A stretch of DNA of 41,327 bases from Halorubrum distributum JCM 10118 (GTDB taxonomy: Archaea > Halobacteriota > Halobacteria > Halobacteriales > Haloferacaceae). This document shows positions 7,086 to 24,519 of the stretch, piece after piece. The stretch is from contig NZ_AOJN01000058.1 in the NCBI RefSeq assembly GCF_000337335.1, forward strand, positions 1 to 41,327, given 5' to 3'. Numbering within the stretch: the stretch's first letter is position 1; each line of letters opens with the position of its first letter. Both the position numbers and the translations under genes were made by a program. The notes beneath the pieces were generated by a model. The model saw nothing but the letters and a program-made list of their open reading frames with translations. It was not told the DNA's origin and searched no databases.

Positions 7086-7158
7086 GCGTCTCCGGGAGTT
7101 TTGATAAAACGTTGTGGGCCAACTTTTCTTGAAGCGTCATTCGCTGCGGTCCGTTGCC

Positions 7159-7175: not shown

Positions 7176-7293
7176 AGGGTTGCGCGGTCCTGAGACGATG
7201 AATACGAGTGTCGTATCGGGTACAGAGCGGTTCTGGGATCGTGGCTCGTTATGAGGACACTGGAACTACAGTCGAGTATCTCAGTAGTTTGCT

Positions 7294-7310
7294 GGACGCA
7301 CCCCCCTCTG
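7294..7310 (+). repeat. Copy 3 of the GGACGCACCCCCCTC repeat
   Basis: GGACGCACCCCCCTC is followed here by TGTCCCCC. It lies 135 bases after copy 2 in direct orientation. A shorter, degenerate copy (GGACGCACACCC) begins at 7368. Confidence 0.75.
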
Positions 7311-7367
7311 TCCCCCTTTGCCACCCAAAGCACAGTAGAGCCGAAAGAGAACCGACCACAGCTTTCA

Positions 7368-7379
7368 GGACGCACACCC
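7368..7379 (+). repeat. Copy 4 (degenerate) of the GGACGCAC repeat
   Basis: GGACGCACACCC keeps the GGACGCAC core but has lost the C6 tract. It lies 67 bases before the Orc1/Cdc6-like start codon at 7446 and is followed by GTTTTTT. Confidence 0.45.
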
Positions 7380-7414
7380 GTTTTTTAGACAGGAAGACAT
7401 GTAGGACACGGGGG

Positions 7415-7423
7415 TTTTATTTA
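7415..7423 (+). promoter_or_regulatory. TATA box of the Orc1/Cdc6-like gene
   Basis: TTTTATTTA is centred about 27 bases before ATG 7446. This favours ATG 7446 over the in-frame GTG at 7437 and suggests a leaderless mRNA. Confidence 0.6.
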
Positions 7424-7445
7424 TGTCACCTGAAAAGTGGAGCGT

Positions 7446-8714: not shown

Positions 8715-8766
8715 TTGTCCAGCAAGCTGGGAGTGAATTTCCTTTACTTTGATAGACTCGGTAACA

Positions 8767-8776
8767 GTTATAATAT
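8767..8776 (+). promoter_or_regulatory. TATA-like element ahead of the DUF499 operon
   Basis: GTTATAATAT is the strongest TATA-like sequence between the Orc1/Cdc6-like gene and DUF499. It would start a transcript near 8797-8803. A second weaker element (TTTGATAA, 8869-8876) lies 21-28 bases before the candidate small ORF at 8897. Confidence 0.4.
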
Positions 8777-8896
8777 CTCGCGAAGGTGATAGAACCATCC
8801 GGATGATTCGGAAGCGAATCACGAAAAGCGCGGGAAGCCCCGGACGGCCAAAGTTATCCGCTCCAGAGTTTGATAAGCTATACACGCACACCGGAG

Positions 8897-9022
8897 ATGG
8901 AAGAATTCCGAACTCGCGAAGTCGGCGGATCTATCATAGGCAACCAGTGGGGGACAACAGGACGGCTTCCTCACTGCCCCGAAACCAACAAGATCGAAAA
9001 CGGCGGAGATCAGAATGAGTAA
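8897..9022 (+). CDS. Candidate 41-aa leader ORF overlapping the DUF499 start
   Basis: ATG 8897 opens a frame that reads MEEFRTREVGGSIIGNQWGT, then TGRLPHCPETNKIENGGDQN and ends in Glu, with its TAA at 9020-9022. It overlaps the first bases of the DUF499 gene (ATG 9015) by 8 bases. The composition is protein-like and the codons fit a haloarchaeal gene. A weak TATA-like element lies 21-28 bases upstream. It could be a small system component or a leader that couples translation to DUF499. A rival frame (8749-9018, or from ATG 8803) ends in an ATGA overlap with DUF499 but encodes a very basic, low-complexity C-terminus, which is less likely. Confidence 0.38.
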   Translation: MEEFRTREVGGSIIGNQWGTTGRLPHCPETNKIENGGDQNE

Positions 9023-12000
9023 CGCAGAATTTCCAACGCTGTTCGACAGTTGCACACCGCGTGATGACGTTCTCGATGGAACGCTCCAAGAAGATCAATT
9101 TGCGGCTAGTCTAGCCACAGTCGCACATTCCTCGGCCGAAGCCCCTCCGGTCTATCGTGATGCGGGCCTCTTCTTCGATATGACCTACCCGACAGACGGG
9201 TTACAAACACTCCTCAGTAACCTCACTGGGAGATTTCTTGCTAGCAGTGGACACGACAGCGGAGGATATTCGAACAGCATCCTCTGTCTGGACACACGGT
9301 TCGGGGGCGGTAAGACACATGACTTGATCGCTTCGTATCACCTTGCGACCCATCCTGGTGATATAGATAATCTCGAAGATCATCTCAACGACGGTGATGA
9401 GGACCTCGCGTCGTCCTATCACGATGCCACCGTTTCTGGTGATCTTGATGTCGACACTGCGGTCTTCGTCGGCGGGCACGTCGACGGCCGAAACGCACGT
9501 AGTGACCGCACGGATCCGGACGCCCCGAACACCCGGACTATGTGGGGGGAGATCGCTTATCAGCTCTACGGGTTGGAGGGGTACGAGTACATCAAGGAGT
9601 ACGATCAAGACCGAAACGCTCCGGGCGGAAATACGCTGAAAGGGCTGTTCGAGATCGGCGACGGGGCGTCGCTAGTCCTCATCGACGAAATTGCGGCGTA
9701 TCTCGAAGCAGCATCCGCCGTCGAAGTCGGAAATGCAACGCTAGCGAGCCAGACGCTGAGCTTCGTTCTTTCACTCCTTGAGACGGCGTCGGAGACGGAC
9801 GACGTTACCGTCGTGTACAGTATCGCTGACACGGCCTTCGAAGAGGAGGCGGACGAGATCCGGACGCTCGTCGACGAACTCAACCAGATCGGCCGTCGGC
9901 AGCACAAGACGGTCACCCCTACCTCTGAGACGGAGGTCGGCCAAGTCCTCCAGCACAGGCTTTTCGAGGAAATAGATCACGATCAAGCTCAGTCTGTCGC
10001 AGAGTCATACTTTCAGTTCTACACCGGCGGAGACCGCCAGTTCCCACAGGAAGCTACTGACGCGAGCTTCGTCGACCGACTTGAACGAGAGTACCCGTTC
10101 CATCCGACGATCATCGATACCCTCACCGAGAAGATCGACACGATCCCGAAGTTCCAGCGCACCCGTGGCGCACTGAAGCTCCTCGCTCGGGCCGTATTCT
10201 ACCTTTGGAACCACCAGCCGGCCAACTACGACCGACACTGGATCCGGCTGTACGATCTGACGCCGGCGGACGATGCTCCGGGCGGCAGCATCGATGGGAC
10301 CCTCCGAGAGACGCTGTTCGAGTTCGTCGATCTCAGCTCTGCGGTCACTGCTGACATCTACAGCGAGGATGAGAACGCGCACGCACAACTCGAGGACCGC
10401 AAGTGGACGGAGAAAGGGATTCCACCGCTCGGAAGCCACCTGACGACAACCGTTCTCTGGCATAGTCTGGCGTATGGCGAACAGGCAACCGGACTCACAC
10501 GAGCGGAAATGAACGCGGCGCTCGGTCATCCCGACATTCGCTTCGACAACTACGACTCGGCACTGGACGCGCTCGCCGGTGACGACATGAGCGTCGCCTG
10601 TTACTACCTCTATGACGAAGAGCGTGTTCGGTTCAAGTCCGATCCGAACCTCATTCGCATCATCGACCAACGCGTCGACAACACCCCGGATGCGCAGGCT
10701 CGCTCGCGGTTTGAGGCCCGACTCGACAGCGAGACCGGGACCGGAGCGTTCGAGCCGGTGTCGCATCCGGAGTCGCCGGCCGACCTCCCGGACAAAGCAT
10801 CGACGCCTCAGCTCGCGATCATGCACATGGATACGGCTCCGGTCACCGAAGCGCTGCTCAACGACGATTCGAACCCGCAGGCAGTCCCGGAGAAGGTCCA
10901 GTCGCTTTACCAGAAGTCGGCGTCAAAACAGGGTGGCGATGCCCAGAGTCGAGTCTACAAAAACTATGTCCTGTTCCTCGCACCCGACGACGAGCGTGTG
11001 AAGAGTGCGGTCGACGAAGCCCGCCACTTGGAGGCCATCGAGGCGCTACTCGACGACAGCCAACAGACTGCCGACCTCTCTCCGGACCAGATTGAAGAGC
11101 TGAAGGAGCGTCAGAAGACGAAGTACGGCCTGCTCGGTGAGCTGGTCCGCGGGGTGTACCGCCACCTCTACTATGTCGACCGCGACGGCCTCACGCACAT
11201 TACCATCAACGCGACCGAGGCCAACGGCGGGACGTCGCTCGTCAACGCTGTCGAAGAGACGCTCGACGACCGGCTGATTCGGGCTGACGCCGGACCCAAG
11301 GGTATCGCGTTCTTCAAGCAGAAGCTCTGGCAGCAGACCCAGGACTCGATGACGACCCAGCAGCTCGTCGAGCAGTTCGCGAAGAAGCCGGGGCTTCCCT
11401 ATCTGCTGAGCACGAAGCCGCTTCGGAAGACCGTCGCGAAGATGGTCGACGACGGGGGGTACACCTACTGGGACGCGGAGTCCGAAACCGTGTACTGGGA
11501 CGCCGACGCCGATGATCATCCCGAGAACTGGCGGAAGCGAAGCCCCCTCGCGGAGTCGCCGGACGTTCGGACATCGATCAGGGACACCGACGTGAAGATC
11601 GGGAACGAGTACGTGGTTTACACGGGTATCGAGTCCCTCCTCGACGTTCACCACGACTCGATTCGGCCGCCCGAGGCGGAGGAAGTCCAGTGCGCCGAAG
11701 ACGGTTGTCCGACGATGGTTGAGCCCTCCGGCGACGGGCCGACGTACTGCGAGAAACATCAGGACACGGGGAAGGTTCGCTGTGAGGAGTGTAACAGGAA
11801 ATACGACGAGAGCAAGCTCAACGCGCAGGGAATCTGCCCCAACTGCGCGCGACCGTCGGGCTGGGACACGGCAACCAGTCAGATGGCCGCCTCTCGCGCG
11901 TTCAACGAGGTCCGAACCCACGCGCTCTCGAAGGCGCCTTCGGACGGAACGCCGGGCGTCTCGCAGGTCACCGTCGAGGTGATGGGCGAGGACCGGCTCT

Positions 12001-12344
12001 CGAAGGGGTCGTTCATCGCTCAACGCGACGCGTTCACCGACCGTGCGGACGCCGTCTCGGTCCGGATGAGCTACGATGTGAAGACATCGACCGGGACGAG
12101 CTACAGCGCGAGCTACCAAGGCGGACTCGACGACTTCTCCCGTGTGACAAACCAGCCCGACCCGTTCGGCGAGTCGATCAACGTCACGCTGAAGTTCCGC
12201 GTCGATCTCGACGAACCCGAAGCCATAACCGACGACGAGGACGACGTGCTCGCAGAGTTACAGGCGGGGCTCGGCCAGACCAACATCGACGTGAAGGTTC
12301 AAGCCAGAGGACCGGTCGAAGTACCCCCCGAGGCCACTCAATGA
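9015..12344 (+). CDS. DUF499-family ATPase of an antiviral cluster
   Basis: This 1109-residue protein has the hallmarks of DUF499. An early P-loop, DTRFGGGKTHDL, lies near residues 93-104 (GGGKT as Walker A), and Walker B, SLVLIDEIAAYL, near 216-227. A conserved CSLLET-like helical part (FVLSLLETASETDDVTVVYS) follows. The C-terminal third carries a double zinc-ribbon-like module at about 893-943, with CAEDGCPTMVE, YCEKH, RCEECNRKYD and ICPNCARPSG. A beta-rich end domain follows. DUF499 proteins are large P-loop ATPases found beside DUF1156 methylases in defence loci (family knowledge). The stop overlaps the next start as ATGA, so this gene is coupled to the small protein downstream. The first 500 bases are less GC-rich than the rest. 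Confidence 0.88.
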   Translation: MSNAEFPTLFDSCTPRDDVLDGTLQEDQFAASLATVAHSSAEAPPVYRDAGLFFDMTYPTDGLQTLLSNLTGRFLASSGHDSGGYSNSILCLDTRFGGGKTHDLIASYHLATHPGDIDNLEDHLNDGDEDLASSYHDATVSGDLDVDTAVFVGGHVDGRNARSDRTDPDAPNTRTMWGEIAYQLYGLEGYEYIKEYDQDRNAPGGNTLKGLFEIGDGASLVLIDEIAAYLEAASAVEVGNATLASQTLSFVLSLLETASETDDVTVVYSIADTAFEEEADEIRTLVDELNQIGRRQHKTVTPTSETEVGQVLQHRLFEEIDHDQAQSVAESYFQFYTGGDRQFPQEATDASFVDRLEREYPFHPTIIDTLTEKIDTIPKFQRTRGALKLLARAVFYLWNHQPANYDRHWIRLYDLTPADDAPGGSIDGTLRETLFEFVDLSSAVTADIYSEDENAHAQLEDRKWTEKGIPPLGSHLTTTVLWHSLAYGEQATGLTRAEMNAALGHPDIRFDNYDSALDALAGDDMSVACYYLYDEERVRFKSDPNLIRIIDQRVDNTPDAQARSRFEARLDSETGTGAFEPVSHPESPADLPDKASTPQLAIMHMDTAPVTEALLNDDSNPQAVPEKVQSLYQKSASKQGGDAQSRVYKNYVLFLAPDDERVKSAVDEARHLEAIEALLDDSQQTADLSPDQIEELKERQKTKYGLLGELVRGVYRHLYYVDRDGLTHITINATEANGGTSLVNAVEETLDDRLIRADAGPKGIAFFKQKLWQQTQDSMTTQQLVEQFAKKPGLPYLLSTKPLRKTVAKMVDDGGYTYWDAESETVYWDADADDHPENWRKRSPLAESPDVRTSIRDTDVKIGNEYVVYTGIESLLDVHHDSIRPPEAEEVQCAEDGCPTMVEPSGDGPTYCEKHQDTGKVRCEECNRKYDESKLNAQGICPNCARPSGWDTATSQMAASRAFNEVRTHALSKAPSDGTPGVSQVTVEVMGEDRLSKGSFIAQRDAFTDRADAVSVRMSYDVKTSTGTSYSASYQGGLDDFSRVTNQPDPFGESINVTLKFRVDLDEPEAITDDEDDVLAELQAGLGQTNIDVKVQARGPVEVPPEATQ

Positions 12345-12961
12345 CTACCGAATTCGATTCGCCACGCGCCGGGACGCCGACCGAGGACGCTCCCGTGTCC
12401 TCGTTCGGGAGCAGCGTCTACGGCGGACGGCCGACGTTCGCGATGGTGCGCCGCGAGGGCTCGAACGGCGGCGAGGTGACGCTGTACGAACTCCTTCCCG
12501 AGGATCAGGCGGCCGCGCGTCGCGTCCGGCTCGAACGCCGCGGGCGCTCGCTCAGCGTCGAATCCTTCGAAGCGGTCTTCGAGGACTCCACGACCGAGGA
12601 GGCGACGCGCTGGGACTGGGACGGGTGGACTACGGTGAAGGTCGCGCGTATCGACGGCGGGCGCTTCCGAGCGCTCTCTCCGCTCATCGAGGAGACCGTC
12701 GACGGCGCGGAACTCGACTCGTCAGCCGTGACCACCAGCGGCGCGGGTGACCTCTTCCTCCCAGAGACTGTCGGCGTCCGGCTGGCACTCGCGTTCCGCG
12801 GCATCAAGCCGCTCCAGCGCGTCGACAGGATGCGTGCCCTCTGTCGCGGCGTCGCTCACATGGGCGACGAGGAGTGCTACTACTGGCACGCGAAGTGCCG
12901 GTCCCCGTCCAGTCCGAACGGCGAGAAAGCCCTGCGAACACTGCTGACTGACCACCTATGA
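12341..12961 (+). CDS. Small defence-operon protein, DUF3780-like (tentative)
   Basis: The 206-residue protein overlaps both neighbours by ATGA junctions, between DUF499 and the DUF1156 methylase. In related clusters this slot often holds a DUF3780 protein. Its C-terminal pattern LALAFRGIKPLQRVDRMRAL followed by DEECYYWHAKC and GEKALRTLLTDHL resembles the DUF3780 end (a Trp/Tyr-rich E-R-W-W-like motif, then G-W-R-K-A-L). The match is by eye and weak. The N-terminus (FGSSVYGGRPTFAMVRRE and onward) looks like a small beta-rich domain. It is probably an adaptor of the ATPase-methylase pair (inference). Its base composition is very GC-rich, in contrast with the gene that follows immediately. Confidence 0.7.
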   Translation: MTTEFDSPRAGTPTEDAPVSSFGSSVYGGRPTFAMVRREGSNGGEVTLYELLPEDQAAARRVRLERRGRSLSVESFEAVFEDSTTEEATRWDWDGWTTVKVARIDGGRFRALSPLIEETVDGAELDSSAVTTSGAGDLFLPETVGVRLALAFRGIKPLQRVDRMRALCRGVAHMGDEECYYWHAKCRSPSSPNGEKALRTLLTDHL

Positions 12962-15819
12962 CAGACCACAACGACGACTTGAAGCCGCTCGCTATCGAGG
13001 GGAAGCTTCCACTGAAAGCTGTTGGGATTGAGAATCTACGGGAAGCCCACCCCACCAATATGCCGCCACATCGATATCTACACCGATGGTTTGCGCGTCG
13101 ACCAACACCCGTCGCAAGATTAGCAACTCTGGCTTCGGTCCTACCGAAAGATACTGAAACGGACGAACTACTCGAATTGATGCAATTCGGGCCAAAGGAA
13201 GGAGTAGATGAGCCTCTCGACAAGTATATAGAGGGAAAAAAAGCGACAGAAGATGACCGTTCAGGTACATTAAGTGACCACTATGGGTATCCTCGGCCGT
13301 TCAAACTTTCTCCCTCTACTGAAAGGTTAGAAGAGTTTCATGACACACTGAGATCGTATTGGGATGGCGAAATCCCCTCAGTTATTGACCCGACCGCCGG
13401 TGGAGGTGTAATTCCCTACGAATCAGTGAGATACCGGCTCCCGACTTCCGCTAATGAGCTGAATTCTGTCCCAAGCCTCATTCTTAAGACGATTCTATAT
13501 TACGCACCCACGGTCGGAGACATTACTCCAGAACTGGAAAACTGGGCAAACAAGATAAATGAAAGAGCCAAGGACAATCTGTCACAATACTTCCCAAGTG
13601 GAAATGGCCGGGATCAGCCCGATAATTATGTTTGTACATATAGTATCACTTGCTCTTCCTGCGGCCGACAAATTCCTCTTGTTCCTAAATGGCGAGTACG
13701 GACGCGCACAGGAGCAGAAACCGTAATAGTTCATCCGTCTTTCTCAGAAGATGGCTCACTTGAGTTCTCCTGTTGGATTAACCCCACTGACGAGGAGCTT
13801 GGTGGCTTTGATCCAACAGATGGCCCCGTCTCACGAGGAGGCAATGCTGAGTGCCTGAATTGCGGTGTGGTATCTGAAGCTGACGAGATTAAACAGTGTA
13901 TCGCTGATGGCGACTATCGGGACGAAATATACTGTGTTCGAACCCACGATAGTGATGGGAGCTTTGGTTTCCGCGCTCCGAATAAAGATGACTACGCTGC
14001 GATGGAAGCAGCAACCAACAAAATCTCGTCTAGTTTTGAACTTTCATCCCTACTGTCAGCAGATATTCCGGAGGGCCAGAAGACGAGTGAACCCCTCGGA
14101 TGGGGATTAGAACAGTGGCGGGATATGTTTACAGATCGGCAGTTGGTGTCGCACTACGAATTCCTTGACGCAGTCAACCACTTTAGGCCGGAAATCTACG
14201 AGAAGCACGATGAGGAGGAGGCAGAAGCTATCCTATCACTAATCACTCTAACTGCGGGCAAATTAGTTGACTACAATTCTCGGCTATCTGGTTGGGATAC
14301 AATTCAAGGATTCCCGAATCCGTTGTCAAAGGATAAAAATTACGCGTTCAAAAGAATATATCCAGATAATAATCTCACCACTGGCGGTCTATCCTTCCTA
14401 TCCCAACTGGACCGCGTCTCAGAATCTTATGCAGATATTGTCGATTATCTTCCGGAAGATGCTGAACCAGCTTCAGTTACTAATCAAGATGCGGCCAGCT
14501 TACCATATGAAGATGATAGCCTCCAAGCTGCGATAATCGATCCTCCCTACTACAGCAGTGTAATGTATGCAGAATTGTCTGATGTTTATTACGCATGGAT
14601 GAAAGAATATCTAAAAGACACATTTCCGGAGTTGTTTGGTCCAGAAACCACAGATAAAGCAAATGAGGCTGTCGCAAATTCCAGTCGATTTGAGGACGTT
14701 GCAGGGGAGGTATCTAAGAAACAGTTAGCCCGGGAATTTTATGAGGAAAAGATGGATGATATCTTCTCAGAATTGTCTAGAATAATCGAACCAGGCGGTG
14801 TGATGACTGTTATGTTTACTCACAAGGAAACAGATGCATGGGATACGCTTACAATGTCCCTCATCAACTCGGGGTTCACAATAACTTCTACACACCCGAT
14901 AACCAGTGAGATGCCGCAACGTGCTGGCATGCGCAGCAGTGCCTCAGCAGACACAACCCTTCTCCTTACGGGCCGCAAACCCCACCAAGAGAGCGATCCC
15001 GAGAACGCGATCCCGACCCTCTGGAGCGACGTCGAGGCCGACACGCGAGCGGCCGCGAAGGAGGCCGCCCGGGACCTCCTCGATTCCGGAATCTCCCTGA
15101 CGAAGACCGACGTCATCATTTCGGCGTTCGGCCCGACGCTCCGGGTCTTCGCCGACGCCTACCCCGTCGTCGACGACGAGGACGAGGAGGTCCCCCCACG
15201 GAAGGCCCTCGAAACGGCACGCGAGGCCGTGACCCAAATCCTCGTCGACGAGTACCTGGAGGGGATGGACGTCGACACCCTCGACGACGTCACCGAGTGG
15301 TACGTCCTCTGCTGGCTCGTCCACGAGTCCGAGACGTTCTCCTACGACGACGGCCGCCAGCTCGGCCTCGGCATCGGCGTCGACATCGACGAGATCAAGC
15401 GCTCGACGAAGACCTGGCGCAAGAGTCGTGGCGACATCAGCCTCCGCGGGCACGAGGGCCGCGTCCAGAACATCAACGAGAAGCCCGAGGACCGGTCGAG
15501 CCGGCTGCCGATAGACCCGGACGACCTCTCGTTCCCGCGCTCGCTGGACGCAGTTCACGCCGCGATGCACGTCTACGATAAGAAGGGCGAAACGGTGACC
15601 ATCGAGTGGCTCCGGGAACGGAACTACGACGCGGACAGCCAGTTCAAGGCCACGCTGAAGGCGCTGCTTCAGGTGCTGCCGAAGAACCACGAGGACTGGG
15701 AACTCGCTCGCGATCTGGCTGTCGGCCGGACGAGTGACGTACTTGACCTCGACTTCGGCCCAAACATCTTCGCGGACGATCGCGAAGACACGTCACAGCA
15801 GAGTCTCGAAGAGTTCTAA
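12958..15819 (+). CDS. DUF1156-family DNA methyltransferase (mosaic gene)
   Basis: The 953-residue protein begins with the DUF1156 signature: KLPLKAVGIENLREA, then HRYLHRWFARRPTPVARL at about residues 38-55. SAM-binding motif I is VIDPTAGGGVIPYES (D144 to G150 carry the core). Catalytic motif IV is IIDPPYYSSVMYAEL (D528-P-P-Y531), the DPPY form of amino-methyltransferases acting on adenine N6 or cytosine N4. Between them lies a zinc-ribbon-like insertion (CSSCGRQIP near 232-235 and CLNCGVV near 299-302). The gene probably methylates host DNA to mark self. The composition changes sharply near 14950 (about residue 664): the upstream part is AT-rich, the downstream part GC-rich like the neighbouring genes. 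Its stop overlaps that of the convergent membrane gene. Confidence 0.9.
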   Translation: MTDHNDDLKPLAIEGKLPLKAVGIENLREAHPTNMPPHRYLHRWFARRPTPVARLATLASVLPKDTETDELLELMQFGPKEGVDEPLDKYIEGKKATEDDRSGTLSDHYGYPRPFKLSPSTERLEEFHDTLRSYWDGEIPSVIDPTAGGGVIPYESVRYRLPTSANELNSVPSLILKTILYYAPTVGDITPELENWANKINERAKDNLSQYFPSGNGRDQPDNYVCTYSITCSSCGRQIPLVPKWRVRTRTGAETVIVHPSFSEDGSLEFSCWINPTDEELGGFDPTDGPVSRGGNAECLNCGVVSEADEIKQCIADGDYRDEIYCVRTHDSDGSFGFRAPNKDDYAAMEAATNKISSSFELSSLLSADIPEGQKTSEPLGWGLEQWRDMFTDRQLVSHYEFLDAVNHFRPEIYEKHDEEEAEAILSLITLTAGKLVDYNSRLSGWDTIQGFPNPLSKDKNYAFKRIYPDNNLTTGGLSFLSQLDRVSESYADIVDYLPEDAEPASVTNQDAASLPYEDDSLQAAIIDPPYYSSVMYAELSDVYYAWMKEYLKDTFPELFGPETTDKANEAVANSSRFEDVAGEVSKKQLAREFYEEKMDDIFSELSRIIEPGGVMTVMFTHKETDAWDTLTMSLINSGFTITSTHPITSEMPQRAGMRSSASADTTLLLTGRKPHQESDPENAIPTLWSDVEADTRAAAKEAARDLLDSGISLTKTDVIISAFGPTLRVFADAYPVVDDEDEEVPPRKALETAREAVTQILVDEYLEGMDVDTLDDVTEWYVLCWLVHESETFSYDDGRQLGLGIGVDIDEIKRSTKTWRKSRGDISLRGHEGRVQNINEKPEDRSSRLPIDPDDLSFPRSLDAVHAAMHVYDKKGETVTIEWLRERNYDADSQFKATLKALLQVLPKNHEDWELARDLAVGRTSDVLDLDFGPNIFADDREDTSQQSLEEF

Positions 15820-16409
15820 CGTAGCTTAGTTAGTTTTTGGTTCCGATATCCGTACTCAATAGCCTGAAGTAGTCGTTCTGCGACAATAACAAACTGAAAC
15901 GCGAGTAGCGCAGACAGACTTGGTAATATCGCTTCCCGGATATTCCCGGAATCAAGCTCAGCAGCCGGCGTGAGTTGAGCTATTGTCTCGGGTGCGAAGA
16001 TAACTGCGACTATGAATCCGAAAATAACTCCGATTTCAGTCATAGTTCCTGCTGCTCTAATTGGGATAAGTTCGATCTTTGGTGGCGGAGAGTCGCTGCG
16101 GTCCTTAAAAATCGTGGATGCTACAAGACTAATTACACGAACTGTGTACCCGATAATGAAGCCAGCCTTCATTTTTGAGAGTGTTGCTGATCCAACGTAG
16201 AATGTGACTTGCTCTCTTGTTACAACAGAGACAGCAAATGCGAAAATCACTACAGATATGAGATATAGTACACCAACGAAGGCCAGTAATTTCACAGTAA
16301 AATAGTTACTAGTATAAATATTTTCATAGATTAGTGTCAATACTATTAATATCGAAAATACAAGTATGGGCACCCAATCAGCCACAACAAATAACGACAT
16401 ATCTGCCAT
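15816..16409 (-). CDS. AT-rich multi-pass membrane protein, unknown
   Basis: This minus-strand gene lies between the methylase and the helicase. It encodes a hydrophobic protein with about five membrane segments, including DWVPILVFSILIVLTLIY, LLAFVGVLYLISVVIFAF, GFIIGYTVRVISLVAS, GVIFGFIVAVIFAP and LPSLSALLAFQFVIV. It ends in a basic tail (GYRNQKLTKLR). I start it at ATG 16409 because a TTTATA element at 16430-16437 then has the correct spacing. Two upstream in-frame ATGs (16421, 16454) would place that element in or beside the coding sequence. Its TAG stop overlaps the TAA of the methylase gene. It is clearly more AT-rich than its neighbours, which suggests recent gain. No family is recognised. 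It could be a membrane effector or immunity protein (inference). Confidence 0.72.
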   Translation of the reverse strand: MADMSLFVVADWVPILVFSILIVLTLIYENIYTSNYFTVKLLAFVGVLYLISVVIFAFAVSVVTREQVTFYVGSATLSKMKAGFIIGYTVRVISLVASTIFKDRSDSPPPKIELIPIRAAGTMTEIGVIFGFIVAVIFAPETIAQLTPAAELDSGNIREAILPSLSALLAFQFVIVAERLLQAIEYGYRNQKLTKLR

Positions 16410-16429
16410 ATCTTGTGTCATACTTAAAA

Positions 16430-16437
16430 TTATAAAT
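16430..16437 (-). promoter_or_regulatory. TATA box of the AT-rich membrane gene
   Basis: On the minus strand the sequence reads TCTATTTATAATTTTAAG. The TTTATA core lies about 24 bases before ATG 16409, which supports that start. Confidence 0.5.
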
Positions 16438-16533
16438 AGATTAGGGAAGTTCAAATTATTCCCGGTTATCCGAGTTCGGTTTTGTACCAGCGATAGTTGT
16501 AAGATGTACCCAAAATAATGGATTAGCAGACGA

Positions 16534-19500
16534 ATGGACGGTCTTCAAAACTTTTCTTGGTCCCCAATTTACGAAAGCCGGCCCAGTGCTGAAAGCACCT
16601 ATCTTGTCGACGAGTTCTACGTCCCGGCGCTTGAACGGAGCGTCCAGTACGACCGTATTGCCGGGTACTTTTCCAGTACCGCCCTCGCTGTTGCTTCCCA
16701 AGGCATCGATGCCCTCCTCGAACACGGCGGCGAGATGCGACTCGTCGTCGGGACCGACCTGTACAAATCCGACAAACCGGTCCTCGAACGACTCAGCGAC
16801 GAACTTCGGGATTCCCTCGAAGAGCTTGACGACGAACAGCTCGATGCCCATCTTCAACTGCTCGCCCGGCTTCTCCGGGAGGATCGACTCCACATCAAGG
16901 TCGCCGTCCCTCGAGAAGGGAGCTGGCAGATATTCCACCCGAAGATGGGCATCTTCCATGATAACGATGATAACGCACTCTCCTTCGAAGGGAGTGTCAA
17001 CGAGACCATCGGCGGCTGGAAACGGAACTACGAGCGCTTCAAAGTCCATCGGTCGTGGGAAGATGGCGAGGACGCCTACGTCGACGCCGACGTCGATACG
17101 TTCGAACAGCTCTGGTCGAACGAGCACCCCTTCGTCGAGGTGTATGACCTGCCGGAAGCCATCGAGAGAAAGTTGATCGATTGGAAGGATCCCGATTCGG
17201 AATCCGAGATCAAGGAAGCGATTCAGATCGCGAGAGGAGAGGCACCGATAACCGAACTGGACAAAGCGAACATCATCGCCGACGGTCCACTCACGCCCGG
17301 TGGTCTGGCACTCGCCGAAGAGGCCTGTACGATCACTCCGTGGCCTCACCAGCGCGTCGTCTCCGACACGCTCGTGAACACCTACCCGAACAGCTTCCTC
17401 CTCTGTGACGAGGTCGGTCTCGGGAAGACCATCGAAGCTGGCCTCACCCTCTCCCGGCTTGGGCTCACGGACGAACTCGAAACCGGTCTCCTCCTCGTCC
17501 CGGCAAGCCTTAGACAGCAGTGGCAGGAAGAGCTATGGGAGAAGTTCAATATCAACGCCTACCGGTTCGAACGTGGCAGCAGCAACGAGTACGCCTTCAT
17601 CGACGCCTTCGGGCGGGAACGCGCGCCGCCGTCTCTGTCGGAACTGAACATTTCTGATGAGGAGCGAGAACGCGCGTGGGTCGAGAGTCCGATATGGCGG
17701 TTCATTAATCAGCAGTCTTCGACCGCGACATCTGATTCCGTGTCTCAGACGCCGACGATTGTCATCATGTCGTGGCACACGGCGCGACTCCAGGACCGTT
17801 GGGATCAAGTCGCGCCTCGGGACAGCGGCCGAGTCCGAACCCGAGATAGTGTCCCTGCGAGTGGACGCGGACGGAACCCGAATCATCGTGAAGGCGTCTG
17901 GGATGCCGTTATCGTCGACGAGGCCCACAACGCTCGGAAGGGCAGCAGTTTCTACGGTATGCTCGACCGGCTCCGAGACCACACGCAGTGCTACTACTTC
18001 CTCACAGCGACGCCGATGCAACTGCATGCCGGCGAGCTCTACGATCTGATGGCACTCCTCGACCTCCCAGAGCAGTGGGACAACGAGGACCGTTTCGTCG
18101 ACTTCTTCGAAACTCGACAGGCGCTCTCTCAGGCGATCCGTACGGTCGTCGATACGGATGGATCTGAATCGGACACCTCCTCCTGGTCAGCGCAAGCGAC
18201 GCTTGACGAGACCCGATATCAAGACCGACTGCCCGCCGAACGAACCCTCTCCGACGACATCTTCGATGAAATGGCGGGAGTACTCGAAATCAAAGCAGAT
18301 GGGAGTCAGGCCCGTTCTATCGCGAAGGAACGCGTGCTAAAGGCATGTACGCTTGCCGCAGGGTACGGTGAACACTTCGACGGATACATCGAGCTCTTCG
18401 AGACGGCTCTCGATGAGCACAACATCGACCCGTTCGAGGCGAAAGAAGACGAGAAGCTCAAATACCTCCTGTATCCGGAGTGGAAAGCGGACGACGAATG
18501 GCTCACCTATGGGCGGAACGACCGGTTGAACGCCCTCGATGACCTCTCCGAATCCGGTTGGAGGGTCGTTCAGGACGTTCTCGCCGAATCCACGCCTGTC
18601 GACGCGCTTATCCACCGGAACACACGGGACACGCTCCGGAAGTACGAACAGGTCGGGCTCCTCGACGAGACAGTCCCGAACCGGGACCCCGAACAGCGCC
18701 AGATTGAACTGACCGACGAGACGCGCCGCGTGTACGACCGGATCGACGACTACACACGGAAGTTCTACAAACTCGCGCAGCAGTCCGACGAGGTCGAAAA
18801 TCGGGCTATCGGGTTCGTGATGACGACGTATCGGCAGCGACTGACTAGCAGCATCTACGCGATTTCACAGAGCCTCCAGCACCGCCTCGAAAAGCTCCGC
18901 ACACAACAAGCGGTTCTGGAACGGAAACAGCAGGCTGCGAAACAAGCAAGAGGACCGACGTTTGGCTCAGATTCGAACACCGGTCAAGTGTTACTGGACT
19001 CCTTGTCGCAACAAGACCTCACGGACTTCGATAGCTTGGACGACATTGACGGTGGATTTGAGGAGATAGACCTCACCGAGATAATTCCGAACGTCACGGA
19101 GGCAGGGATGGACCTGCTCGAACAGGAGATCGAGGAGCTCGAATCCTTCGTCAGTGACCTGCGGCAGATCGATCGGGATCCGAAAGTCGATCAGCTGATT
19201 GACGACCTCGGTGAACTTGATCGCGAGGGCCACAACCGAGTCATCATCTTCACCCAGTATACGGACACGATGGATTTCATTCGCAACAGTCTCGTCTCGA
19301 TACACGGTGAAACCGTCGCTACCTACTCTGGCCGTGGAGGAGAGATGTACGACGCGGATGAAGAGTCGTGGAGAACGGTCGGGAAAGAGCGAGTCAAACG
19401 CGAGTTCGCTACTGACGAAGGCCAAGTGGACATTCTCGTCTGCACAGACTCAGCCAGTGAAGGCCTCAATCTTCAGGAGTGTGGGGCCCTCATCAACTAC

Positions 19501-20502
19501 GATCTTCCGTGGAATCCGATGCGTGTTGAGCAGCGCATTGGACGCATTGACCGCATTGGACAGCGATACGATGAGGTCGAAATCCTCAATTACAGCTACA
19601 AGGACACTGTCGAGACAGACATTTACGAGCGTCTTGACGACCGGATCGACCTCTTCGAGAACGTCGTTGGTGAAATGCAGCCTGTTCTCTCTGGAGTGAG
19701 CAAACAGATTCGAACAGCGACTCTGGAAAAGGATAGAGATGAGAGCCACGAGGCAGTCGCAGAAGCTGACCGTGAGTTTTCCGAACAGATAGAGAACCAA
19801 GAGCAGAGCGACCGCGTGGATGTAGGTGAGTCTCTTGAGACGGTGGAGCCATTGGTCGCGCAGGATGTTATCGACGAGGCGAGACTCGACGCGTGGCAGT
19901 CGTACAGCCATCCAGACATCGGGGAAGCACGAGAAGAGGATTATCGATATCCAGCACCGTATCAAAAATCAAGCCTGGAAGCTGTTCTCGTCGAGAATGA
20001 GACGCTTGCTGACACAGGGGTGACTTTCACTCCGGTTACTGAGCTTGATATCGACATTACAAACAGCGAATATGAGGGCGAGTTCGAACACGAAGAAACG
20101 ACCTACCGTCTCAATTGGGACGGTATGGAATTACCGGAGCCAGACGGCGAGCAGACGTTCGCTCAGTTCATTGCCCCGAGCAAAGATTCGGTTGCTGTGA
20201 CGTTTTCGTCAGACTGTGCCGACGAATTCCCATCGATACACCACTTCGCGCCAGGGAACCCTCTTCTCCGTGAACTGATTGAGATGCTCCGTGAGACAAG
20301 CGATGAACCGAGGCGATTAGTGCGGCAGGCTGAATTCAGAGAGACAGTTTCGGAACGCCCAGCAGTCTGTGGGTGGGTGCGTGAAGAGAAAATCGGACGA
20401 GTGAGCAGCGACGGTGAAGTTATTGAAGATCTCGACATAGGTCTTATTGGTTCGTGGTTTACGGAATTTCAGGAAAACTACGAGAAGACGACCTCACAGT
20501 AG
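16534..20502 (+). CDS. Phospholipase-D-like domain plus SNF2-family helicase
   Basis: This 1322-residue protein starts with a phospholipase-D-like domain (about 1-200). H135-x-K137 (IFHPKMGIFHD) and SFEGSVNETIGGW at 150-162 form one HKD-type active site. An SNF2/superfamily 2 helicase core follows: Walker A LLCDEVGLGKTIEAGL near 292-303, motif II VIVDEAHNARKG near 460-471, motif III FLTATPMQ, motif V ILVCTDSASEGLNLQ and motif VI RIGRIDRIGQ near 1000-1010. The long insert between the two helicase lobes contains coiled-coil stretches. DISARM also pairs an SNF2 helicase with a PLD protein and a methylase, so this fusion fits the defence role. It is probably the DNA-translocating motor or degradation component. 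It is transcribed separately from the methylase operon. Confidence 0.9.
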   Translation: MDGLQNFSWSPIYESRPSAESTYLVDEFYVPALERSVQYDRIAGYFSSTALAVASQGIDALLEHGGEMRLVVGTDLYKSDKPVLERLSDELRDSLEELDDEQLDAHLQLLARLLREDRLHIKVAVPREGSWQIFHPKMGIFHDNDDNALSFEGSVNETIGGWKRNYERFKVHRSWEDGEDAYVDADVDTFEQLWSNEHPFVEVYDLPEAIERKLIDWKDPDSESEIKEAIQIARGEAPITELDKANIIADGPLTPGGLALAEEACTITPWPHQRVVSDTLVNTYPNSFLLCDEVGLGKTIEAGLTLSRLGLTDELETGLLLVPASLRQQWQEELWEKFNINAYRFERGSSNEYAFIDAFGRERAPPSLSELNISDEERERAWVESPIWRFINQQSSTATSDSVSQTPTIVIMSWHTARLQDRWDQVAPRDSGRVRTRDSVPASGRGRNPNHREGVWDAVIVDEAHNARKGSSFYGMLDRLRDHTQCYYFLTATPMQLHAGELYDLMALLDLPEQWDNEDRFVDFFETRQALSQAIRTVVDTDGSESDTSSWSAQATLDETRYQDRLPAERTLSDDIFDEMAGVLEIKADGSQARSIAKERVLKACTLAAGYGEHFDGYIELFETALDEHNIDPFEAKEDEKLKYLLYPEWKADDEWLTYGRNDRLNALDDLSESGWRVVQDVLAESTPVDALIHRNTRDTLRKYEQVGLLDETVPNRDPEQRQIELTDETRRVYDRIDDYTRKFYKLAQQSDEVENRAIGFVMTTYRQRLTSSIYAISQSLQHRLEKLRTQQAVLERKQQAAKQARGPTFGSDSNTGQVLLDSLSQQDLTDFDSLDDIDGGFEEIDLTEIIPNVTEAGMDLLEQEIEELESFVSDLRQIDRDPKVDQLIDDLGELDREGHNRVIIFTQYTDTMDFIRNSLVSIHGETVATYSGRGGEMYDADEESWRTVGKERVKREFATDEGQVDILVCTDSASEGLNLQECGALINYDLPWNPMRVEQRIGRIDRIGQRYDEVEILNYSYKDTVETDIYERLDDRIDLFENVVGEMQPVLSGVSKQIRTATLEKDRDESHEAVAEADREFSEQIENQEQSDRVDVGESLETVEPLVAQDVIDEARLDAWQSYSHPDIGEAREEDYRYPAPYQKSSLEAVLVENETLADTGVTFTPVTELDIDITNSEYEGEFEHEETTYRLNWDGMELPEPDGEQTFAQFIAPSKDSVAVTFSSDCADEFPSIHHFAPGNPLLRELIEMLRETSDEPRRLVRQAEFRETVSERPAVCGWVREEKIGRVSSDGEVIEDLDIGLIGSWFTEFQENYEKTTSQ

Positions 20503-20541: not shown

Positions 20542-21561
20542 TCAGTTCTCTCCTACGGAGAACTCAATTTCCGGGTGTTCGTACGTGTAGCACTTTATGT
20601 CGTTATCCTCACAGTAGTCCGCTAGTCCCATGGGAAGTACGTCAACTTCTTCGAAGTCAGTAAAGAACGCAACTGTCACCTCACTACTCCCGTCCGGACT
20701 CTCGATTACAACTGCCGTGTCCGGATCGCTGTGGCTGGTCTTGACCACCTGATCTCCTGGGACATACGGGTTGTCTGCGAATGCGAGGTTCTCGTGTTTG
20801 TACGTCCAGAGCTTGACGTCCTGGTCGTCACAGTACGACGCGAGGATCGCGGGGTGGTAATCGCGCCACGCACCTGGTCCCTCATCGAGCGAACTCGGGA
20901 ACGCGACCCGCACCGCTTCCCCGTCCATTTCGTGTCCGAACGCGCCGGTGTTCTGCTCCGGCGGTAGTACCTCGACGACGATCCCCACCGACGGCTCCGA
21001 GTCGCCAGCCTTCACCACCCGATCCCCTGGTGAGAACGGATTCTCCGGCTTCTGGTTCATGTGAGCGGTGTTGGGCCCGAGGTCGATCAGTTCGTTCATC
21101 GGGCGAGCCGCGAGGTGGTCGAGTTTTTCCGGGGACTCGCCCGAGAACGCCTTTTCTGTTTCGACCTTCGATTTCAGCGTCTCGAGTCGCTCCCACCCGA
21201 GTAGCATTAGACTGTCCTCGTTGTCCCGATGCCAGACCATTACTACGATGTCGTCATCGGGGTCCCGTTCAACGAGCGACTCGGGAAGGAAAGCCGAGAC
21301 GTCCCGCGATGACTTCACGTCGACCGTGTAGCCGAACACCTCGAAGTCATGCCCAGAGAAGCTCTCGGAGTTACACCGCCGGATTGCTTCCTCGTTTTCC
21401 CACTCCCACATCTCGACGGGGAGGTACTCGCGACAGAACTGCTCGAACGCGAGCTCGCCGAGGTTGCCGATCCGCTTCGCGTCGAGGTCGTCGGCCCCCT
21501 GAATGACCGCTTGGTGATGGGCCCGCTCGCGATCGATTTCGTCCGGCGTGAACCGATACAT
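20542..21561 (-). CDS. PD-(D/E)XK-type nuclease with two tandem C-terminal modules
   Basis: Residues 30-120 of this 339-residue protein look like a PD-(D/E)XK restriction-endonuclease core. RIGNLGELAFEQF gives a Glu at about 36, SGHDFEVFGYTVDVKSS gives D72 and the D81-x-K83 pair, and a strand IVVMVWHR follows. The C-terminal half is a tandem duplication. Module 1 runs from NPFSPGDRVVKAGDSEP (about 174) to YCDDQDVKLWTYKHENLAF (about 261). Module 2 runs from NPYVPGDQVVKTSHSDP (about 264) to YCEDNDIKCYTYEHPEIEF (about 334). Each looks like a small beta-barrel (PGD-x-VVK) plus a conserved YC(D/E)D-x-D end. The gene is convergent with the helicase and ends the island before tRNA-Arg. The nuclease call is by motif; I do not know the module family. 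Confidence 0.72.
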   Translation of the reverse strand: MYRFTPDEIDRERAHHQAVIQGADDLDAKRIGNLGELAFEQFCREYLPVEMWEWENEEAIRRCNSESFSGHDFEVFGYTVDVKSSRDVSAFLPESLVERDPDDDIVVMVWHRDNEDSLMLLGWERLETLKSKVETEKAFSGESPEKLDHLAARPMNELIDLGPNTAHMNQKPENPFSPGDRVVKAGDSEPSVGIVVEVLPPEQNTGAFGHEMDGEAVRVAFPSSLDEGPGAWRDYHPAILASYCDDQDVKLWTYKHENLAFADNPYVPGDQVVKTSHSDPDTAVVIESPDGSSEVTVAFFTDFEEVDVLPMGLADYCEDNDIKCYTYEHPEIEFSVGEN

Positions 21562-21809
21562 ACCTGAATATCAAACACCGGACAAATATATTTTTAGTAT
21601 GAGATATCAAATCAATGAACCGGGAGAGGAAGCCGTATCGAGATTTGCTCGCTGATGACTACAGTCGGCCTCTTGGGCGTTTCTTGAGTGTTGATGGGTC
21701 GGGCAGGAGTATATTCGACCGGCGCGACGGGATCCACGCGAGCGACCGAAGGGAGCGAGCGTGGAGCCAGTCGCGCCCGTGTTCGAGCGAGCGAAGCGGC
21801 GCGAGAACA
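21562..21809. repeat. Hairpin-rich strip with tRNA 3'-end duplications (possible att scar)
   Basis: GGCGCGACGGGAT at 21721-21733 is an exact copy of bases at 21812-21824, inside the tRNA-Arg 3' region, in direct orientation. An inverted copy of the acceptor end (TCGCGCCCGTGTTC, 21771-21784) pairs perfectly with 21805-21818, a 14-base stem with a 20-base loop. A further hairpin uses TCCACGC (21733-21739) and GCGTGGA (21759-21765). The direct copy is what remains of an attachment site after integration at a tRNA gene would look like. No integrase gene is seen in the window. The left part (21562-21610) is AT-rich and holds the nuclease promoter. Confidence 0.5.
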
Positions 21810-21882
21810 CGGGCGCGACGGGATTTGAACCCGCGGCATCTTGGTCCGGAACCAAGTGCTCTGTCCGCTGAGCTACGCGCCC
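21810..21882 (-). tRNA. tRNA-Arg (anticodon CCG)
   Basis: On the minus strand a full cloverleaf is visible. The acceptor GGGCGCG pairs with CGCGCCC. The D arm is GCTC-AGCGGACA-GAGC. The anticodon stem CTTGG/CCAAG encloses TTCCGGA, so the anticodon is CCG (reads CGG, Arg). The T arm is GCGGG-TTCAAAT-CCCGT, with discriminator G. The length is 73 bases, with no intron and no encoded CCA. Its 3' end points toward the defence island, the usual orientation for elements that integrate at the tRNA 3' end. Confidence 0.95.
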
Positions 21883-21909: not shown

Positions 21910-24519
21910 TTAACGCTTCTGACTCGGGTCCTCGGCGGGCGGCCGCGGGTCGGTCTGCCACTCGAACGCGTCGCCCCCGGAGTCGGCGTCCCCGGCCGAC
22001 GCGTCCGTCCCGCCGTCGGTGCGGGCCGGGTCGGGCGCGTCGCTCTCGTCGGTCGAGATCACGTCGGCGGCGTCGAGGAAGCGGCCGACGAACAGCAGTC
22101 CGGGGCGGCGCTCGACGACGGCGACCCAGACGACCAAGGCCGGGGGCAACACGATCAGCGACGCCAGGTACGCGAGCGTGATGCTGGCGGCAGTGAGCAG
22201 CCCGAACTGGCCGAGGATCGGGGTGATGGCCAAGACGAGCACGCCCGTGCCGAGCGCGGTCGTCGCCCACGTGCCGGTGAGCGCGCCGCCGGTCCCGCGG
22301 AGCGTGGTGACCACCGCGGCGTCGACGTCGCCCCCGCGGGGGTACTCGTCGTGGAAGCGGTGGGCGACGTGGACGGTGTAGTCCACCCCGAGCCCGATGG
22401 TAATCGCGAGGATCGTCGCGGTGATCGCGTTGAACGGGATGCCCGCGAGCCGCATCGTGGCGGTGAGCGTCGCGACGGCGACCGTCACCGGGACGAGCGT
22501 GACGAGGCCCAGCGTCGGGCTGCCGAGCAGCAGCCAGAACAGGATGACGAGGAACACCGCCGACAGGCCGAGCGCGGCCGCCAGCGAGACGATCGCGGAG
22601 TCGAAGATCGTGTCGGCGACCGCCTGGAACACGACGATCTGGCCGGTCGCGGTCGCGTCCCCGCGGTAGCGGTCGGCCACGCGCCGGGCGTCGGCGGTGA
22701 TCTCGGCGTCGCTGGCGTCGGACTCGACGGCGTACACGATCCGCGTCGAGCGGCTGTCGTCCGCGAGGTACTCGCCGGTGAAGTCGTCGTACGGCGAGTT
22801 CCGCAGCTCGGCGTAGATGCGGTCGAGGTTCCGGTTCGGGCGCCCGTCGTCGAGCGAGGATTCCTCGACCAGCTCCTCGAACTCGGGGTCCTCGGCGGCG
22901 TACGCGTCGATCGCGCTCTGGACGCTGTCGGCGCTGGCGCGGCCGTCGACCGTGACGAACGAGTCGGGCGGGTCGCGCTCGGCGCGCGCGAGGCTGCGCA
23001 GGGCGCTGTCGCTGGTCATGCGCCGCTCCACGTAGATCGTGACGGTGTCGTCCTCGCTCGTGGCGAAGTTCTCGGAGAGGAAGTTGATCGTCTCCGTCGC
23101 GGTGTACTCGCCGGGCTGGAGCGGGCCGGGGAAGTAGTCGATGTACGCCGGCTCCTCGCTCGGCGGCAGGAAGTCGTCGTCCTCGAAGGTGGTGTCGACG
23201 CCCGCGCCGTAGCCCGCGGCGCCCGCGGTGATCAGGAGGACGACGACGAGGAAGACGGCGGGCGCGGGCCGAGATATCGCGGACAGTTTGGGGAGGAACC
23301 GCCCGAGCGCGGAGTCCTCGGCGCCGAGCGGGCGAGACCCGAACTCGGGCAGCGAGCGCTTTGCGCGCCAGCGGTCTAAGAGCAGCTTGGCGGCCGGGAG
23401 GAAGCCGACGAAGATGACGAGGGTGAAACAGATCCCGAGCCCGGCGACCAACCCGAACTCCCGGAGCGGGGGCAACGAGCTGGTGAGGTTCGCGAGGAAG
23501 CCGATGATCGTCGTCCCGGCGATGATCGAGTACGCCACCACGAGCTGGCCGAGCGCGCCGCGCATCGCCGTCTCCGGGGGCGCGCCCGCCGCGCGGTCCT
23601 CGCGGTAGCGGTTCACCGTGTGGATCCCGAAGTCGATCCCGATCGCGAGGAGGAGGACTGGCACCGCGATCAGCACCTCCGAGAACGCGATCCCCGCGTA
23701 CCCCGTGAAGCCGAACGTCCACACGACCGTCATCAACAGCGCGATCCCGCCGAGCACGAAGTCGAACGGGTCGCGGTAGGCGTACGCCAGCAGGCCGAGG
23801 ATGACCGCGAGCGCCGCGGGCACGACGATCGACAGCGAGTCGAAGATAACGCGCTCGAACTCGTCGTCGACGATCCCCCCGCCGAACGCGGTGATGTCAC
23901 CCGGGGCCTCCTCGGCGACGGTACGGGCCTCGCTCTGGATCGCCTGCGTGTCCGCCGAGGCCGGGAACGAGTGGGAGACGACGCCGAGCGACGCGGAGGC
24001 CGTTCCGGACTCCTCGTTGAAGTCGTCCGAGAGCAGCGTCGCGAAGCCGGGGTCCTCGGCCGCGGCGTCGACCGCGTCGTCGATCTCGCCGTCGCTGGCG
24101 CGCTCGATCGCGTCGCGGGCCGCCGCGGGCGTGTCGGCGTCTTCGTCGAGCTCGGCCGCGACGTCCATCGCCGGCGCGGAGAAGTCGGTCACCCGCAACC
24201 CGTCGCGCTCGTCCAACCGCTCGGCGGTCGCCAGCATGTCGAGCAGGCCGCGGCGGTCGAGCACGTTCGCGTCGCGCTGGATCAGCTGCGTCGTCGGGTC
24301 GTCACCCCCGAACGCGGGCTCGAACCGCTCGTTCACGCGGTCGAGCGCGTCCGCCTCCTCGATCCCGTCCGTGAACTGGTCGCTGCCCGCGCTCGCCTCC
24401 AACAGCGCCATGCCGGGCGCGAACAGGGCCGTGACGACGAGACAGGCGATCACGACCCGGCGCGGCTGCTCGATGACCCGGTCGGTGATCGCGCCGAACA
24501 GCCGGGTGATGGGGTCCAT
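21910..24519 (-). CDS. MMPL/RND-family transporter
   Basis: The 869-residue protein has the two-fold RND layout of the MMPL family. It has one N-terminal helix (VVIACLVVTALFAPGMALLE), a large external domain, then a block of helices with ALAVILGLLAYAYRDPFDF, LLMTVVWTFGFTGYAGI and VLLLAIGIDFGIHTVNRYRE. The second half repeats this: helix VFLVVVLLITAGAAGYG, an external domain, then LGLSAVFLVILFWLLLG, ATILAITIGLGVDYTVHVAH and two or three more helices. The repeated G-I-D-F/Y-x-H-x-x-x-R (residues GIDFGIHTVNR and GVDYTVHVAHR) is typical for this family and carries the proton-relay Asp. The C-terminal tail is acidic. It directly abuts the upstream COG1361 gene (no spacing), so the two form an operon and probably a functional pair. 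The substrate is unknown. Confidence 0.92.
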   Translation of the reverse strand: MDPITRLFGAITDRVIEQPRRVVIACLVVTALFAPGMALLEASAGSDQFTDGIEEADALDRVNERFEPAFGGDDPTTQLIQRDANVLDRRGLLDMLATAERLDERDGLRVTDFSAPAMDVAAELDEDADTPAAARDAIERASDGEIDDAVDAAAEDPGFATLLSDDFNEESGTASASLGVVSHSFPASADTQAIQSEARTVAEEAPGDITAFGGGIVDDEFERVIFDSLSIVVPAALAVILGLLAYAYRDPFDFVLGGIALLMTVVWTFGFTGYAGIAFSEVLIAVPVLLLAIGIDFGIHTVNRYREDRAAGAPPETAMRGALGQLVVAYSIIAGTTIIGFLANLTSSLPPLREFGLVAGLGICFTLVIFVGFLPAAKLLLDRWRAKRSLPEFGSRPLGAEDSALGRFLPKLSAISRPAPAVFLVVVLLITAGAAGYGAGVDTTFEDDDFLPPSEEPAYIDYFPGPLQPGEYTATETINFLSENFATSEDDTVTIYVERRMTSDSALRSLARAERDPPDSFVTVDGRASADSVQSAIDAYAAEDPEFEELVEESSLDDGRPNRNLDRIYAELRNSPYDDFTGEYLADDSRSTRIVYAVESDASDAEITADARRVADRYRGDATATGQIVVFQAVADTIFDSAIVSLAAALGLSAVFLVILFWLLLGSPTLGLVTLVPVTVAVATLTATMRLAGIPFNAITATILAITIGLGVDYTVHVAHRFHDEYPRGGDVDAAVVTTLRGTGGALTGTWATTALGTGVLVLAITPILGQFGLLTAASITLAYLASLIVLPPALVVWVAVVERRPGLLFVGRFLDAADVISTDESDAPDPARTDGGTDASAGDADSGGDAFEWQTDPRPPAEDPSQKR

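Follow-up and report, generated by a model that had tools for sequence, protein, structure and literature searches.

A gene-free palindromic cassette tailored to the tail of tRNA-Arg(CCG) in Halorubrum distributum, and related units behind tRNA genes of Halobacteria

tRNA genes are favoured docking sites for mobile DNA, and to our knowledge the fate of such a docking site between integrations has been little studied. The tRNA-Arg(CCG) gene of Halorubrum distributum JCM 10118 raises this question in a concrete form. A direct and an inverted copy of its 3' end lie immediately behind it, on the side of a defence-like island, and in the initial annotation both were read as att scars from integration or excision of that island. 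Are these copies the edge of the island, or do they belong to a unit of their own? The window, that is, the whole stretch of DNA analysed (41,327 nucleotides), is an entire contig of the draft genome, and the far end of the island lies outside it. The features relevant to the question are the following.

21810 to 21882, minus strand: tRNA-Arg(CCG) gene, whose 3' end TCCCGTCGCGCCCG (minus strand) is the proximal core (ARAGORN; Rfam RF00005, 69 bits).
21721 to 21809, minus strand: type-2 cassette, non-coding, made of hairpin 1, inverted core, hairpin 2 and distal core copy.
21770 to 21784, minus strand: inverted copy of the tRNA 3' end region, with a 15-bp pairing to 21805-21819 (fold).
21730 to 21768, minus strand: hairpin 2 (CTCCACGC...GCGTGGA), whose apex pair differs on both sides between species (fold and comparison).
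21718 to 21733, minus strand: distal direct copy of the tRNA 3' end, 13 bases exact and 15 of 16 overall (repeat search).
20542 to 21561, minus strand: orf339, 339 aa, without Pfam or PADLOC match, outside the cassette; a recurrent island gene near this tRNA whether the cassette is present or absent.
21910 to 24519, minus strand: MMPL-family membrane protein, 869 aa, outside the cassette; it marks the core side and is the right-hand neighbour of the tRNA in relatives.
7437 to 8714: Cdc6, a neighbouring island gene.
3280 to 20502: defence-like island with GmrSD-like, DUF4268 (PDC-S11-like), Cdc6/Orc1 homologue, HmaC/DUF499-like ATPase, DUF7680, DUF1156/HmaB-like methylase and PLD-helicase genes.

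The sequence GGCGCGACGGGAT occurs twice in the window without mismatch, at 21721-21733 and 21812-21824 (91 nt from start to start), which bears out the 13-base exact direct copy reported at the outset; when extended, the two copies agree at 15 of 16 bases (21718-21733 and 21809-21824). The inverted copy is equally real. Its arms, 21767-21789 and 21800-21822, match at 87% over 23 nt, and in the predicted fold of the tRNA strand 21805-21819 pairs with 21770-21784 in an uninterrupted stem of 15 bp, not the 14 first given. When the 300-nt 3' flank was shuffled 2000 times with its dinucleotides preserved, neither match was reached (direct, 13 nt against a maximum of 12; inverted, 12 nt against 11). 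A second hairpin, absent from the initial annotation, lies between the inverted and the distal copy, and the 131-nt fold has a z-score of -4.5. Read on the tRNA strand, the order is the tRNA 3' end TCCCGTCGCGCCCG, hairpin 1, the inverted copy CGGGCGCGACTGG, hairpin 2 and the second, direct copy TCCCGTCGCGCC. The resulting cassette of about 90 bp is gene-free, and its position is the exact insertion point of elements with SNJ2-like integrases in relatives. Like SNJ2-type elements, it is bounded on either side by a 13-15-bp direct repeat of the tRNA 3' end, but no integrase is encoded in these ~90 bp.

The tRNA gene is a true border, since for 12 of the 21 named loci the right-hand MMPL-family gene has a tRNA-Arg(CCG) close by (at ~0.1 kb or less; in L041, at 1.9 kb), and the left side is variable. 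The GC content is 0.71 to the right of the tRNA (22001-24000) versus 0.54-0.58 immediately to its left. The reading of the 13-base copy as an att scar of this island is not supported. Orf339 and Cdc6 are found beside the same tRNA without the module in G035, behind an integrase element in G028 and behind the module in G036, and G018 has orf339 alone, without Cdc6, behind the module. Conversely, in G014, G042, G048, G016, G037 and G026 the unit is present and neither orf339 nor Cdc6 was found within the 20 kb read. As unit and island genes occur independently at this tRNA, the reading of the repeat as a boundary scar was largely rejected. On these comparisons, the repeat is a separate small unit recurring at other tRNAs, not the edge of the island. 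The concern that the 13-base copy might be part of a common intergenic repeat proved half right: the module does recur, but what it copies differs from one tRNA to the next and matches the gene it stands behind.

Within the genus, the unit directly follows tRNA-Arg(CCG) in 11 of 52 genomes, H. distributum included (matches from query position 25 or lower to 183 or higher, with tRNA identity confirmed separately); the copy of G007 is degenerate. For the 41 remaining genomes, the top tRNA match among those listed begins at query position 101 or higher, about at the tRNA 3' end. Displaced units were found on the same contig and strand in G017 (~11 kb away), G045 (~38 kb), G021 and G033 (~0.1 kb each). 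In G017 and G045 the cassette sits at the far end of a segment holding a tyrosine integrase gene, which in G017 lies about 55 nt from the cassette match. Integrase-bearing segments with a 13-15-bp core at the far end occupy this tRNA in G028 (14.7 kb), G017 (11 kb) and G045 (38 kb), in support of the initial view that the tRNA 3' end is an integration site. By identity to the SNJ2 integrase over 88-99% of the query (54% in G028, 47% in G045, 52% in G017), the integrases at this tRNA are SNJ2-like.

Three states of the site have homologous flanks at a shared insertion point. In G035 the tRNA is followed by TCACAATTTCTGACGGG, with no unit; in G036 by a unit ending in GGATCCCGTCGCGCCCG and then TCACGTTTTCTGACGGG; in G028 by the 14.7-kb integrase element, TCCCGTCGCGCCCG and then TCATAGTTTCTGACGGG. 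G021, which has cassettes only, and G045, with its 38-kb insertion, likewise have common sequence from ~60-90 nt past the cassette. The three states with a common flank and the G021/G045 homology indicate that the unit and the integrase elements use the same point. Empty and occupied sites are available at two tRNAs, G035 versus G036 at tRNA-Arg(CCG) and, at tRNA-Ser(TGA), G045 without and G000 with a unit, where flank homology starts at +41 and +212, respectively. Loss of a unit by recombination between its direct repeats would leave an identical empty site.

Similar copies are frequent in the same genome. At a threshold of at least 12 nt of the tRNA's own 3' end, 19 of 42 intron-less tRNA genes of H. 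distributum have a 12-26-nt copy within 300 nt downstream. Upstream there is a single case (1/42, at the tandem tRNA-Asp), and none of 840 shuffles gave one. Two of the 19, L025 and L033, have N-containing flanks, and a third is a tandem tRNA-Asp gene counted because of the gene next to it; 16/42 remain without these three. Inverted copies of at least 9 nt lie in between in 17 of the 19 (a raw count). The same survey gave 14/30 downstream and 1/30 upstream in G045 (30 of 45 tRNA places read), and 8/42 and 3/42 in Halosimplex (30 of 59 places read), where five of the eight are 22-23-nt copies at +124 to +133 and two of the other three lie inside a tRNA cluster. A Bacteroidales control yielded 2/32 in either direction, reciprocal between neighbouring tRNA genes (30 of 39 places read). 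A tRNA-swap control was uninformative because T-arms are common to different tRNAs.

The copies fall into two types. In type 2, represented in H. distributum at tRNA-Arg(CCG), Arg(GCG) and Ala(GGC), 13-14 nt of the acceptor end are copied. Type 1 mostly has 22-23 nt copied, from the T-arm to the 3' end, in the order F, hairpin A, R (the inverted T-arm), hairpin B, F. The GA-motif strand is antisense in all three type-2 units of this genome and sense in 14 of the other 16 units, with tRNA-Leu(TAA) mixed and one tRNA-Asp lacking the motif. Separately, GA-rich palindromic filler of the GCGAGCGAAGCGAGC type was seen at several places of the genome, e.g., L006-L008, with no tRNA in the fetched stretch. 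Some copies in draft assemblies call for caution. Beside N in the 3' flank of the genome's own tRNA-Val(TAC) (L025) stands a 19-mer which we take to be the Nextera transposon adapter, likely assembly contamination, and adjacent tandem copies flanking N in drafts (L025, L033, L111, L240) are likely artefacts. In the accessible text of PMC7911831, 90-bp repeats in two such drafts are termed artefacts.

Units of type 1 often contain a conserved hairpin that is spread across the whole class. Of the 391 class genomes, 133 have its strict pattern, CAGTCGCGCGCAGCGA-N(3-33)-GAGCACGTCTG, and these represent 47 of 86 genera; the backward pattern gave 0 matches among those listed. A slightly shorter pattern was found in 38 of 392 phylum-sampled genomes, all among the 81 of this class (a number counted from the listing), and in 0 of the 311 others. 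For 32 hairpin matches at 30 loci, the surroundings were read. A same-strand tRNA precedes the hairpin by 48-313 nt in 29 of them, and in 21 of these 29 an exact copy of at least 20 nt of that tRNA's end comes within the next 4-8 nt; the other three loci have no tRNA within the fetched stretch.

The hairpin is mismatched, with conserved inner mismatches, and its outer stem covaries. Position -1:+1 is a Watson-Crick pair in 29/31 sequences (shuffle maximum 21) and -2:+2 in 22/31 (maximum 20). Seven of 15 type-1 pairs beat all 500 shuffles and eight do not, for a total of 370 against a maximum of 318; the 15 pairs were chosen after a prior look at the data, L235 (contig end) had been dropped beforehand, and both shared descent and the dependence of R on F may contribute to such values. 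Among 16 type-2 copies, 6 of 28 predicted pairs changed on both sides. Quasipalindrome copying could maintain some of this complementarity. In addition, similar hairpin apices in several Halorubrum genomes (tRNA identity was checked for few) suggest vertical inheritance.

The units also form arrays. Behind tRNA-Lys of G042, on one contig and without N, four 22-nt F copies follow one another at an exact spacing of 111 bp with three identical intervals, and G051 has a mosaic of differing hairpins behind the same tRNA. On contig C66 of H. distributum (L240:7575-9250), a tRNA-Ala-type core and then a type-1 array come directly after an SNJ2-like integrase gene (46% identity to the SNJ2 integrase). 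The 20 kb read there contain no tRNA, and sequence duplicated around N on this contig resembles assembly artefacts. In G051, G042 and G044, an Arg-type type-2 unit lies within the tRNA-Lys array. On the right of this unit, the cassette end GGATCCC runs into TCCCGGCCCG, the Lys acceptor end, to form a hybrid junction. At its left junction, GGTTCGAATCCC is followed by GTCGCACCCG, GTCGCGCCCG or GTCGGACCCG (GGTTCGAATCCC joined to GTCG...). This left junction is compatible with one crossover in ATCCC that would join a small circle to the Lys core, but it is not diagnostic: the sequence is identical or almost identical to the end of tRNA-Arg(CCT), and the T-arms of Arg(CCT) and Lys are the same. Ectopic gene conversion or unequal exchange can also produce such hybrids, the three of which may descend from one event, and homologous recombination between direct repeats can produce the tandem copies.

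The Haloarcula halophila plasmid NZ_CP119561 (L275:858-5673) contains a cluster of 23 predicted tRNA genes, 22 of them between the genes for a type B DNA polymerase and a TROVE-domain protein and one beyond. Its tRNA-Cys, recognized by Rfam, is interrupted inside the T-arm by a type-1 unit. A tRNA intron was considered for this single tRNA-Cys, and no clear bulge-helix-bulge (BHB) was seen in its folds. Some further stretches of the plasmid resemble disrupted tRNAs. At tRNA-Arg(CCT) of L109, L114, L117 and L121, the gene's own acceptor end reads GCCGTG or GCCGCG and the array copy GTCGCG; on these short differences, it looks as if 3' ends had been exchanged.

Could the units simply be parts of viruses? 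The exact type-1 pattern has 0 matches in IMG/VR, the type-1 consensus none in phage records and one in a plasmid, and the window's own unit no full match in phages or plasmids. The sole IMG/VR match to a first pattern lacked a tRNA and was read as coding sequence. A cassette derived as a copy of a viral attP was rejected as well: in three viruses searched for exact 8-mers within 120 nt, the attP regions of Humcor2 and Halfgib1 are without 8-nt inverted repeats, and SNJ2 has one short hairpin near attP and no inverted copy of the core. These database negatives, and attP regions without a comparable palindrome, argue that the units are not parts of known viruses. A known RNA family was also discarded, as Rfam matches were to tRNA only. 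The literature searched, in which coverage of subscription papers is incomplete, yielded no description of such arrays.

The proposal we favour is that these are non-coding integrative cassettes exchanged by site-specific recombination at tRNA attachment cores. We hold it tentatively, at a little under an even chance: the non-diagnostic left junction at tRNA-Lys lowered it from an even one, and the absence of the type-1 motif from the viral and phage collections weakens it. A resident 'tRNA-tail cassette', a palindromic unit of ~90 bp flanked by the tRNA 3' end and a repeat of it, would enter, leave and be exchanged through the tRNA core. Type-2 units, with their 13-14-nt acceptor-end core, would share their site with SNJ2-like tyrosine integrases, and type-1 units would use a 22-23-nt core starting at the T-arm. 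Newer units or integrase elements would land beside the tRNA and displace older ones, and the arrays would become tandem or mosaic in this way. Either type has one stable strand, and the hairpins may be recognized in folded form or may keep a small circle recombinable. The acting enzyme would probably be a tyrosine recombinase, in the case of type 2 an SNJ2-like one. Such a process would work like att-site accretion at tRNA genes, and we claim membership in no known family.

Several known systems resemble the cassettes in part. Casposon/Cas1 insertions duplicate their target at tRNA 3' ends and leave direct repeats of ~14 nt. The cassettes likewise carry direct repeats of a tRNA 3' end. MITE or casposon mini-elements have terminal inverted repeats and identical target duplications; in the cassettes, the inverted copies are internal and tRNA-tailored, the right repeat at tRNA-Lys is a hybrid, and no terminal inverted repeats were seen. 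In the integron attC site, which an IntI-type enzyme recombines as a folded single strand, an imperfect hairpin has conserved mismatches, a foot rebuilds the core from two complementary boxes, and one strand is favoured. The covarying foot stem and the conserved inner mismatches of the cassettes are compatible with such a site without proving it, and attC-like folding is a possibility; the core, however, is a tRNA T-arm, and neither an integron integrase nor cassette genes were seen. Bacterial REP elements are short, non-coding, palindromic and dispersed. Palindrome-associated elements (PATE) are described for Haloquadratum in PMC3119063. The cassettes are short, non-coding and palindromic too, but whereas REP/BIME and PATE are dispersed in intergenic space, the conserved hairpin stands behind a tRNA in 29 of 32 matches, joined to a copy of that tRNA's end.

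The closest parallels lie in haloarchaeal integration itself. SNJ2-type pleolipoviruses and related elements have the same target and a 13-15-bp acceptor-end core, as far as described in the accessible parts of PMC7911831 and PMC8371274, and SNJ2-like integrases are found both in elements at this tRNA (G028, G017, G045) and beside the C66 array. By comparison, the cassettes are ~90-170 bp long, gene-free and array-forming, and they have inverted core copies, which the three viral attP regions examined do not. In Haloquadratum, according to the available text of PMC3119063, prophage ends carry 22-nt tRNA-Ala and 43-nt tRNA-His copies; there a 22-nt tRNA 3' copy marks the far att, similar to the 22-23-nt copies of type-1 cassettes, but the Haloquadratum copies lie ~20 and 52 kb from the tRNA and those of the cassettes mostly 75-210 nt away, around hairpins.

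Among the alternatives, we consider a host-serving role unlikely: spare tRNA 3' ends with hairpins might attract or trap integrases and so spare the tRNA gene from viruses and plasmids. Many copies are indeed exact over an att-length core and chromosomal, the motif reaches 47 of 86 genera while being missed by the exact and consensus searches of IMG/VR and phage records, and the accessible text of PMC7911831 gives the att of pleolipovirus Humcor2 as 13 bp identical to a tRNA 3' end. However, integrase elements sit at the tRNA itself and not within an array in the three cases examined (G017, G045, G028), the C66 array likewise stands behind an integrase, and with 11 of 52 genus genomes the unit adjoins this tRNA in a minority.

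Structured RNA in the tRNA 3' trailer, serving processing or attenuation or giving a stable small RNA through mutually exclusive pairings of the end and its copies, would fit the strong predicted folds, covarying stems and conserved mismatches. We regard it as just as unlikely, or slightly more so, because the stable GA-mismatch strand is antisense in type 2 (3/3) and sense in 14/16 others; with opposite stable strands, one tRNA-sense RNA does not explain both types. Units 11-38 kb from a tRNA also largely retain the structure, and no Rfam family besides tRNA was matched.

It is improbable, in turn, that the units arose without any dedicated machinery, when replication slipped, the template was switched or exchange was unequal at the T-arms of tRNA genes. 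Template switching does yield inverted and direct copies of local sequence, tandem repeats are common, and GA-rich palindromic filler also occurs away from tRNAs, but the exact inner hairpin is common to 47 genera and many different tRNAs, the copies lie on the 3' side, and unit ends coincide with integrase cores. Last, att scars of the adjacent island, largely refuted as a statement about this island, have a very small probability: island-like GC and variable genes do begin at this tRNA and relatives have integrase elements there, but the island genes stand near it without a unit in G035, the unit stands without orf339 or Cdc6 in the six genomes named above, and the window contains neither attR nor integrase, as the initial annotation had stated correctly (no integrase family among the eight left-hand proteins in a Pfam scan; six PF00589 matches in the genome, 0 on this contig; negative core search).

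A wider form of the cassette proposal is doubtful, but worth stating. A class-wide 'tRNA-integron' would use T-arms and acceptor ends as recombination cores. Its gene-free hairpin cassettes would be recognized in the manner of attC, as single strands in folded form, and each type would have its favoured strand. Behind tRNA genes these cassettes would be taken up, stacked, reshuffled and swapped, at times in place of the 3' end of the tRNA itself. The cassettes may mislead the prediction of att sites and island boundaries, as happened at this locus, and they offer testable substrates for SNJ2-like integrases. Throughout an archaeal class, a conserved hairpin stands joined to copied tails of many different tRNAs, which points to a dedicated function, for recombination or for defence, at tRNA genes.
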